A stretch of 32,135 bases of DNA. Source: an uncultured Prochlorococcus sp. GTDB lineage: Bacteria > Cyanobacteriota > Cyanobacteriia > PCC-6307 > Cyanobiaceae. The notes under the pieces were generated by a model. The model worked only from the letters and a program-made list of their open reading frames with translations, was not told where the DNA came from and ran no database searches. The position numbers and the translations under genes are program-made. How positions within the stretch are numbered: the stretch's first letter is position 1; each line of letters opens with the position of its first letter. Below are positions 13,140 to 15,588 of the stretch, in pieces. The DNA is taken from assembly GCA_902618335.1 (NCBI GenBank), contig CACNAI010000012.1:1-32135 (forward strand). Reading direction: 5' to 3'.

Positions 13140-14051
13140 ATGAATGTAAGTATTGTTATACCGACTTACAACAGACTACCTATATTAGAGAAATGTCTAG
13201 TTGCGCTTGAGAATCAAAAATTAAATACAAATATCAGTAATTATGAAGTAATAGTAGTTGATGATGGATCCACTGATGGGACAAGCTCATGGATAAATAA
13301 AAATAAAGATAATCTCCCACACGTTATTCTATTTCAGCAAGAACATGGAGGACCCGCACTAGGAAGAAATCTAGGGGTAATTAAATCTAAATATGAAATA
13401 ATTATATTTATTGATAGTGACCTTATTGTTTTAGATGATTTTATAAATTGCCACGTAGAAAAATTACTTACCTCTTGGAGAAAAAATGATAAAAAATGTT
13501 TTACCTATGGCTCGGTAGTCAATACATCTAATTTTCTAAATCCTCAGAGTGAAAAACATAAAATAATAGACTCTTCTTTTGCTTACTTCGCTACTGGAAA
13601 TGTCGCGATATCAAAAGAATTGATTTTAAGCGTTGGCTTATTTGATACTTCTTTTAGTCTTTACGGTTGGGAGGATTTAGAACTTGGGGAAAGATTAAAA
13701 AAAATTGGGACAAAATTAATTAAATGTCCAAATGCTGTAGGTTTTCATTGGCATCCACCATTTAATTGCGAACAAATAGATTCATTAATAGCTCAAGAAA
13801 AAGAAAGGGCAAAAATGGCTTTAGTGTTTTACAAGAAACATCCAAATTTAAGGGTTAGATTTATGATTCAATTAACTCCTCTTCACAATTTACTATGGCA
13901 AATTCTTTGTTTGGGAGGATTAATCAGTATTGATAAAATCACTCCTTTGTTAAAATTTTTAGTAAATAAAAGACGAAATAGACTTGCACTTGAGATACTT
14001 AGGATACCTCTAAATATGATTTACATTAAACAGTTAACCAAATCAAGATAA
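13140..14051 (+). CDS. Family 2 glycosyltransferase
   Basis: GT-A fold transferase. Counting from ATG 13140, the first beta strand is MNVSIVIPTYNRLPILEKCL, the nucleotide-binding VVDDGSTDG is at 39-47, the metal-binding DXD equivalent is IDSD (91-94), and the acceptor-side block is YGWEDLELGERL (175-186), where WED carries the likely catalytic base. The frame also allows GTG at 13134, two codons earlier. No signal peptide; a weakly hydrophobic stretch near 238-258 may bind the membrane. Donor and acceptor unknown; surface polysaccharide or glycolipid synthesis is most likely. It follows the exporter operon and precedes rpsB. Confidence 0.85.
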   Translation: MNVSIVIPTYNRLPILEKCLVALENQKLNTNISNYEVIVVDDGSTDGTSSWINKNKDNLPHVILFQQEHGGPALGRNLGVIKSKYEIIIFIDSDLIVLDDFINCHVEKLLTSWRKNDKKCFTYGSVVNTSNFLNPQSEKHKIIDSSFAYFATGNVAISKELILSVGLFDTSFSLYGWEDLELGERLKKIGTKLIKCPNAVGFHWHPPFNCEQIDSLIAQEKERAKMALVFYKKHPNLRVRFMIQLTPLHNLLWQILCLGGLISIDKITPLLKFLVNKRRNRLALEILRIPLNMIYIKQLTKSR

Positions 14052-14076
14052 AAAACTTTTAGAAATACGCATCACT

Positions 14077-14085
14077 TGCTAGAAT
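14077..14085 (+). promoter_or_regulatory. Extended -10 promoter element for the rpsB leader
   Basis: TTGCTAGAAT contains TGn-TAGAAT, an extended -10 box (TG at 14077-14078, TAGAAT at 14080-14085). No convincing -35 is visible. Transcription would begin near 14092, about a dozen bases before the first arm of the structured leader, which fits a leader starting there. Inferred from sequence only. Confidence 0.4.
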
Positions 14086-14104
14086 TATTAAAATTAAATC
14101 CACA

Positions 14105-14168
14105 CATCTGACAGTTTCGGGTGATTTAATAACATTAATTCCCCGTCAGATGGAGGCTAACCCGAAAC
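14105..14168 (+). promoter_or_regulatory. Structured rpsB leader: two interleaved perfect inverted repeats (pseudoknot or switch)
   Basis: Arm A CATCTGAC (14105-14112) pairs perfectly with A' GTCAGATG (14145-14152). Arm B GTTTCGGGT (14114-14122) pairs perfectly with B' ACCCGAAAC (14160-14168). The order A-B-A'-B' means the helices cannot nest: they form either an H-type pseudoknot (gaps of 1, 22 and 7 bases) or two mutually exclusive hairpins. A GGAGG lies between A' and B' (14152-14156), overlapping A' by one base, and B' ends 11 bases before the rpsB ATG. Folding should therefore control ribosome access. Ribosomal proteins often regulate their own mRNA, and S2 does so in E. coli; S2 binding here is inference. 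Confidence 0.75.
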
Positions 14169-14179
14169 CCTTTTAAATT

Positions 14180-14884
14180 ATGGCTGTTGTATCACTATCT
14201 GAAATGATGGAAGCTGGTGCTCATTTTGGGCATCAAACTAGACGTTGGAATCCAAAAATGTCTAAGTATATATATTGCGCTAGAAATGGTGTTCATATCA
14301 TCGATCTTGTGAAAACAGCATTATGTATGAACAATGCTTATAAATGGACAAGAAACGCAGCAAAAAGTGGTAAACGTTTCCTTTTCGTCGGGACAAAAAA
14401 ACAAGCATCAGATGTTGTAGCCCAAGAAGCTACTAGGTGCGGAGCTGCATACGTAAATCAAAGATGGCTTGGAGGAATGTTGACTAATTGGACAACAATG
14501 AAAGCTAGGATTGAAAGATTAAAGGATCTAGAAAGAATGGAAAGTAGTGGTTCAATAGCGATGAGGCCAAAAAAAGAAGCTGCGGTCTTAAGGAGAGAAC
14601 TTGAAAGATTACAGAAATACTTAGGCGGGCTTAAGGGCATGAGAAGATTACCCGACGTAGTTGTTTTGGTTGACCAGAGAAGAGAGTCTAATGCAGTATT
14701 AGAAGCTAGGAAATTAGACATCTCATTAGTGTCAATGCTGGATACAAACTGCGATCCAGATTTGTGTGAGGTTCCCATTCCATGTAATGATGATGCCGTT
14801 AGATCTGTGCAACTTATTTTAGGAAGACTTGCAGACGCTATAAATGAGGGCAGAAAGGGTTCTAATTCCGAAAGAAAAAATTAA
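14180..14884 (+). CDS. rpsB: 30S ribosomal protein S2
   Basis: S2 binds late in small-subunit assembly, at the head-body junction, and helps recruit S1. The family opening [20 protein letters not shown] and [11 protein letters not shown] is present, followed by [28 protein letters not shown] and the C-terminal [23 protein letters not shown]. 234 residues is normal. An ATG start lies just after the structured leader. It is followed 47 bases later by tsf, the classic rpsB-tsf pair, so control of the leader would affect both genes. Confidence 0.97.
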
Positions 14885-14931: not shown

Positions 14932-15588
14932 ATGGGAAACATTACAGCAAAACTTGTAAAAGATCTTAGAGACAAGACTGGAGCAGGAATGATGGATTGC
15001 AAAAAAGCACTTAATGAAACTGATGGAAATGTTGATAAAGCTTTGGAATGGTTAAGAAAGAAAGGTATAGCTAGTGCTGAAAAGAAATCGGGAAGAGTTG
15101 CGGCTGAAGGTTCAATTGGTAGTTATATTCATACTGGATCAAGAGTTGGAGTTTTACTAGAGTTAAATTGTGAAACTGATTTTGTGGCGAGAGGTGATAT
15201 TTTTCAATCTCTTTTAAAGGATGTCTCAATGCAAGTAGCAGCTTGCCCAAATGTTGAGTATGTCTCAATTGATGAAATCCCAGAAAATGTTGTAGAAAAA
15301 GAAAAGCAAATTGAAATGGGGCGAGATGATTTATCTGGAAAACCAGAGCAAATTAAAGAAAAAATAGTTGAAGGGAGAATTGCGAAAAGACTAAATGAGT
15401 TGGTTTTGCTTTCACAACCTTATATCAAAGATAGTTCACTGACTGTAGAGGATCTCGTTAAGCAAGCAGCTGCAAAAATTGGGGAAAATATCAAAGTAAG
15501 ACGCTTTACAAGATACACATTGGGTGAAGGTATTGAAAAAAATCAGATGGACTTCGCTGAAGAGGTAGCTTCAATGCAATCAAACTAG
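14932..15588 (+). CDS. tsf: Translation elongation factor Ts
   Basis: EF-Ts is the guanine nucleotide exchange factor that recycles EF-Tu. The N-terminal UBA-like domain holds [21 protein letters not shown] (about 9-29) and [19 protein letters not shown]. The core contains [14 protein letters not shown], the TDFV block that contacts EF-Tu. 218 residues matches the short cyanobacterial form with one main dimerisation domain, without the extra domain of E. coli (283 residues). ATG at 14932. Follows rpsB on the same strand. Confidence 0.96.

Follow-up and report, generated by a model that had tools for sequence, protein, structure and literature searches.

A pseudoknotted rpsB leader in Prochlorococcus, a probable ribosomal protein S2 autoregulatory element of the rpsB motif family

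The leader of rpsB in an uncultured Prochlorococcus sp. is best read as an autoregulatory mRNA leader for ribosomal protein uS2 (the rpsB product), belonging to the rpsB motif already in print and homologous to the Escherichia coli t44 element. Judging from sequence comparison, we put the probability of this reading at about 0.88. The leader lies in the window, the whole 32,135-base stretch of DNA that we analysed, and its features are collected in Table 1.

Table 1. Features of the rpsB leader and its surroundings, in window positions
Feature	Position	Strand	Basis or remark
Candidate promoter: TTTAGA, 16 nt, extended -10 TGCTAGAAT (14077-14085)	14058..14085	+	9/12 matches
Conserved CACA (CRCA), directly 5' of helix A	14101..14104	+	
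Helix A (P1) 5' arm CATCTGAC	14105..14112	+	perfect-repeat search; covariation
Helix B (pseudoknot) 5' arm GTTTCGGGT	14114..14122	+	perfect repeat; 9 bp in 103/103 picocyanobacterial leaders
Loop where the rpsB motif has P3; AU-rich hairpin, ending in CCCC (14141-14144)	14123..14144	+	
Helix A (P1) 3' arm GTCAGATG	14145..14152	+	perfect-repeat search; covariation
Linker GAGGCTA between helices A and B	14153..14159	+	GAGG nearly invariant
Helix B (pseudoknot) 3' arm ACCCGAAAC	14160..14168	+	perfect repeat; conserved pairing
AT-rich spacer without SD-like sequence	14169..14179	+	
rpsB, ribosomal protein S2, 234 aa	14180..14884	+	ATG at 14180; identical proteins in named Prochlorococcus records
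Downstream ORF, presumed tsf (elongation factor Ts)	14932..15588	+	position and sequence

The window belongs to an assembly of about 1.08 Mb in 51 contigs that is 60.56% complete. The open reading frame upstream of the leader stops at 14051, leaving 128 intergenic bases before the rpsB start. In a genome scan, the top 80 loci listed, 78 from Prochlorococcus and two from Synechococcaceae cyanobacterium, encode proteins 98-100% identical to the window S2, and the name rpsB also fits the E. coli gene that stands behind the homologous leader. The downstream frame, which we take to be tsf, probably shares an operon with rpsB. Two rpsB matches elsewhere, L042 (genome G092) and L060 (G551), carry one in-frame stop each (TAA, TAG).

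We compared 138 cyanobacterial rpsB leaders, of which 64 were from the same genus (the window included), 39 from the same family and 35 from the same class. The genus set was made up of the 30 top matches, 14 further ones and 20 picked for spread; the family set took 39 of the 41 same-family genomes among the matches listed, and the 35 class leaders were hand-chosen among the matches listed. The sample is non-random and holds many related sequences, and the alignment cells reported below count sequences and not independent events. Counts came from anchor-based registers and from an alignment of 50 sequences (10 genus, 8 family and 32 class), drawn from 89 distinct short-loop leaders and omitting, by choice, 39 of the 49 distinct short-loop genus leaders. 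They were not taken from an alignment of 128 leaders (the 138 minus five duplicates and five leaders with loops of more than 70 bases), which sets the class leaders one column off at their pseudoknot 3' arm, since most of them have a linker with one extra base. In L072 (85 bases), L080 (145), L094 (87), L096 (85) and L099 (91), a long loop separates GAGG from the pseudoknot 5' arm, as if insertions were tolerated at this place.

A preliminary description of this DNA had reported two perfect inverted repeats, A/A' of 8 nt and B/B' of 9 nt, interleaved in the order A-B-A'-B', ending 11 nt upstream of the rpsB ATG, with a GGAGG (14152-14156) between A' and B' that has one base in common with A'. 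We recovered each of these features, with both arm pairs matching at 100%. The same architecture was present in every one of the 138 leaders, with no misses, and each leader formed at least seven of the eight P1 pairs and at least six consecutive pseudoknot pairs. Together with the covariation of helix A, this bears out the proposal of a conserved pseudoknotted rpsB leader. The CRCA directly 5' of helix A was found in 64/64 genus, 39/39 family and 34/35 class leaders and reads CACA in E. coli, counts that are partly built in, as the anchor pattern itself required a nearby C[AG]C[AG].

The two helices differ in how far comparison can test them, and the check for compensatory changes in both that had been suggested succeeded for helix A only in full. 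Over the 138 leaders and eight positions of helix A, with the register of each leader taken as the better paired of two offsets (137 rows at one, a single row at the other), 98.1% of cells held standard pairs. Changes on both sides relative to the commonest pair occurred in 190 cells versus 50.7 in shuffles, and none of 500 shuffles reached as many; sliding the partner strand by one or two positions lowered pairing to 22.7-37.0%. All eight pairs were intact in 62/64 genus, 26/39 family and 29/35 class leaders, and in the 50-sequence alignment all seven counted pairs showed two-sided changes, with 99.7% of cells paired. As judged from these alignments, helix A clearly covaries strongly across cyanobacterial leaders. 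The hairpin in the position of P3 had two-sided changes in each of its four aligned pairs in the 50 sequences (85.0% of cells paired), and three of those four pairs form in the window.

Helix B is a full 9 bp long in all 64 genus and all 39 family leaders and 6-9 bp long in the class leaders. Pairing reached 96.5% of cells across the 138 leaders versus 94.2% in shuffles, and 15 cells had changed on both sides versus 3.4 in shuffles (0/500 as high). With the partner slid by +1, however, pairing fell to 53.1% and 12 two-sided cells remained, with an equal number of pair types (11). In the 50-sequence alignment the two-sided changes were confined to the two outermost of the nine pairs. The core of helix B is thus nearly invariant and yields little covariation, so that its pairing is weakly tested within cyanobacteria; one core pair is C-G in the window and G-C in E. 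coli.

The position of the candidate promoter (Table 1) agrees with transcription of the whole element. It carries a TG before its second hexamer, and it is one of four promoter-like sites found in 13900-14300, where 2.0 were expected. The pattern TGnTAnnnT occurred within 50 nt upstream of the motif anchor in 138/138 leaders, against 4.9% (genus), 3.8% (family) and 5.7% (class) in shuffles of the same stretches. Its commonest distance to the anchor was 17 nt in the genus (52/64) and 20 nt in the family (29/39) and the class (20/35). From these sequence patterns we infer a transcription start near 14092, upstream of 14112 and hence on the side compatible with the structure first proposed. A literature search found no mapped Prochlorococcus transcription start.

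Comparison with Rfam placed the leader close to a known family. At the gathering threshold there was no match in the window. At E values up to 10, t44 (RF00127) was the best of 4227 families, matching with its full-length model at 14083-14162 with 29.1 bits (cut-off 44; E 2.5e-4 for 351 bases, 9.8e-5 for 141 bases); the E. coli rpsB leader scores 83.5 bits against the same model. The Rfam search suggested in the preliminary description gave t44 as the best match without reaching its cut-off, and because the score lies below the gathering cut-off we file the leader as a homologue and not as a member of RF00127. Weak matches to SNORD12 and potC were taken as chance. With strict filters, t44 reached its cut-off of 44 in none of 145 class genomes, as in none of 19 cyanobacterial loci, a shortfall that a re-seeded model would mend.

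We built a covariance model from the 50 cyanobacterial leaders alone. In the window's own assembly (61% complete), it gave one match, at 14100-14168, with 71 bits and an E value of 4.5e-18. Among 291 genomes of the phylum, 133 matched at E ≤0.01, every one from the window's class, which accounts for 141 of the genomes; none of the 150 outside the class matched under strict filters, the split into 141 and 150 being derived from the order of a listing in which 138 misses are not shown. Nine distant phylum genomes that were searched more fully gave matches at E 0.155 or worse only. Both places were listed for 108 of the 133 matching genomes, and in every one of these the match sat on the rpsB strand, 7-30 nt upstream of the gene. 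The weakest match within the class was that of G431 (E 0.00126). Class genomes without a match were G433, G459, G210, G281, G285, G370, G372 and G437; G459 is the source of L080, the leader with the 145-base loop. G433, of the same genus and listed as 99% complete, had neither rpsB nor a leader match, possibly owing to an assembly gap. The rpsB gene itself was found in 379 of the 386 genomes of the phylum sample, though the leader model matched none outside the class. In another class genome (G235), L084:350-406 matched the glutamine riboswitch (glnA leader) with 43.3 bits; it lies on the strand opposite rpsB, upstream of that gene by some 290 to 345 bases.

Applied to the E. coli rpsB locus, the only part of that genome searched, the 50-leader model scored 24.1 bits (E 4e-7 for the 501 bases), and P1, GGAGGC and AACCC all aligned in register; the next best match there had 7.1 bits. 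The preliminary description had left open whether the structure was already described. It is: Meyer et al. (2009; PMC2704228) present an rpsB motif that consists of P1, a P2 and a P3 that vary, and a pseudoknot formed with the strand following P1, name Cyanobacteria as carriers in which P2 is absent or very short, and predict five pseudoknot pairs outside the Firmicutes. The window has the corresponding parts 5' of rpsB, with P1, a pseudoknot, a minimal P2 of one base (14113) between P1 and the pseudoknot arm, and a hairpin in the place of the variable P3. On these likenesses, the window leader is very probably the Prochlorococcus copy of the motif of Meyer et al., homologous to the t44/rpsB leader of E. 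coli.

The GGAGG had been proposed as a ribosome entry site that folding could hide or expose, a proposal that the comparison does not support. Its last base is 23 nt upstream of the rpsB AUG, and its first, G14152, is paired in helix A. We scored GGAG, GAGG or AGGA at -18 to -4 as SD-like. A separate sequence of this kind near the rpsB start was present in 34/35 class leaders and in 0/39 family and 0/64 genus leaders (0/103 picocyanobacteria). The GAGG of the motif was kept in 64/64 genus, 37/39 family and 35/35 class leaders, and E. coli has an SD-like GAGG downstream of the motif besides the motif's own. The motif GAGG is equally kept where a separate SD exists and so does not owe its conservation to a role as the sole SD, and we regard GGAGG as unlikely to serve in ribosome entry. 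To judge by this pattern, GAGG is probably a structural element or a protein-binding (recognition) element rather than an SD. We applied this rule to six ORF starts of the window (12181, 13134, 14180, 14932, 15864 and 16698, several of them tool-chosen and uncertain) and found an SD-like sequence at none of them, so the absence of an SD is not special to rpsB.

These counts also bear on a different function for the element, that of a ribosome standby site or a translation enhancer, with the 30S subunit drawn in by GGAGG, the distance to the AUG bridged by helix B, and S2 not the ligand. Such a role would suit the picocyanobacteria, where no other SD-like sequence was found in 103 leaders and 101 of them have the GAGG, but it sits badly with the GAGG of all 35 class leaders, 34 of them with a downstream SD-like sequence, with the like arrangement in E. 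coli, and with the pairing of G14152. We consider it very improbable.

Autoregulation by S2 is favoured by analogy with E. coli, where S2 represses rpsB-tsf through its leader with help from S1, according to a 2024 review (PMC10931766). The same review places the SD and start outside the S2 operator, calls the mechanism unclear, and cites in-cell probing of the E. coli rpsB leader (Mustoe 2019). By this analogy we infer the same S2 control in the window's organism. Surplus S2, unneeded by new 30S subunits, would bind the leader, perhaps with S1, and lock the pseudoknot; initiation would then be blocked and less S2 (and EF-Ts) made. When S2 is scarce, the pseudoknot would open and ribosomes could load. 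The pseudoknot 3' arm stops 11 nt short of the AUG, where it would fall within the footprint of the 30S subunit, so the locked form would be expected to block initiation.

The element might instead act mainly on mRNA stability or be a separate small RNA, and the E. coli record does annotate tff, a putative small RNA T44, overlapping the rpsB leader. However, the position directly before rpsB in each of the 108 genomes compared, the lack of any terminator-like site in 13900-14300, and the review's view that S2 uses the E. coli leader as its operator (PMC10931766) speak against this alternative, which we hold to be highly improbable.

We also weighed the arms against chance. Interleaved perfect arms of 8 and 9 bases within 70 nt occurred at a single site in the 32,135 bases; when the intergenic bases (14052-14179) were shuffled 20,000 times with dinucleotides preserved, 6 of the shuffles held such arms, in line with the earlier argument that such arms are unlikely by chance. 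Shuffling the complete window 60 times gave at least one such pair in 10 cases. Folding energy was uninformative as evidence for structure, the value for the leader region being not unusual (z -0.69; 44 of 200 shuffles equally or more stable). The case for structure rests on conservation, and folding energy adds little. Chance inverted repeats in AT-rich DNA, an origin to which the whole-window shuffles and the folding z value would lend themselves, can be dismissed, being already refuted by the comparative data (138 of 138 leaders conserved, covariation of helix A) and disfavoured by the intergenic shuffles.

Within the S2-operator reading, the picocyanobacterial leaders have a further feature. 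The six bases that precede the 3' arm of P1 contain a CCC in 62/64 genus and 32/39 family leaders (94/103 picocyanobacteria) and in 4/35 class leaders. In the window, CCCC could pair with GGG at 14119-14121 in place of helix B. Nested folding gave -23.5 kcal/mol for P1 with GGG/CCC versus -20.5 kcal/mol for helix B, and paired at least two of the three pseudoknot-arm G residues inside the loop in 59/64 genus, 36/39 family and 16/35 class leaders, a preference that is biased because a nested program is unable to form the pseudoknot together with P1. The picocyanobacterial operator might thus be an SD-free two-state switch between a P3-extended GGG/CCC hairpin and a lengthened 9-bp pseudoknot, with S2 selecting the pseudoknot. 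We offer this idea tentatively and think it unlikely. If it were true, the hairpin made with the lineage-specific CCC and the pseudoknot would exclude each other, and the pseudoknot chosen by S2 would shut an SD-free start. A literature search, conducted mostly without full texts, did not find the missing SD and the CCC competitor of picocyanobacteria described, and the terms Prochlorococcus, rpsB and pseudoknot do not occur in the main text of PMC6847405.

The element is already known and largely ordinary, and the lack of an SD in picocyanobacteria and the possible competitor helix are modest additions to it. A structure kept without an SD in one lineage offers a natural test of how an S2 operator represses when the SD lies outside the operator.

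Among known systems, S15 (rpsO) leaders share with the reading proposed here autoregulation by a ribosomal protein via a pseudoknot near the start, but they concern another gene and protein, and in E. coli both the SD and the start codon lie inside the S15 pseudoknot (PMC10931766). The likeness to the rpsB motif of Meyer et al. (2009) extends to the position before rpsB, P1, a minimal P2, a variable P3, and a pseudoknot that links the junction with the 3' extension after P1; that motif has five predicted pseudoknot pairs outside the Firmicutes, whereas the window has nine, and its P3 is a weak AU-rich hairpin. The E. coli rpsB leader (t44) has CACA, P1, GGGUG, GGAGGC and AACCC in the same order as the window. 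It differs in its longer, interrupted hairpin, its five consecutive pseudoknot pairs and the SD-like GAGG near its start, where the window leader has a shorter hairpin, nine pseudoknot pairs and no SD-like sequence.
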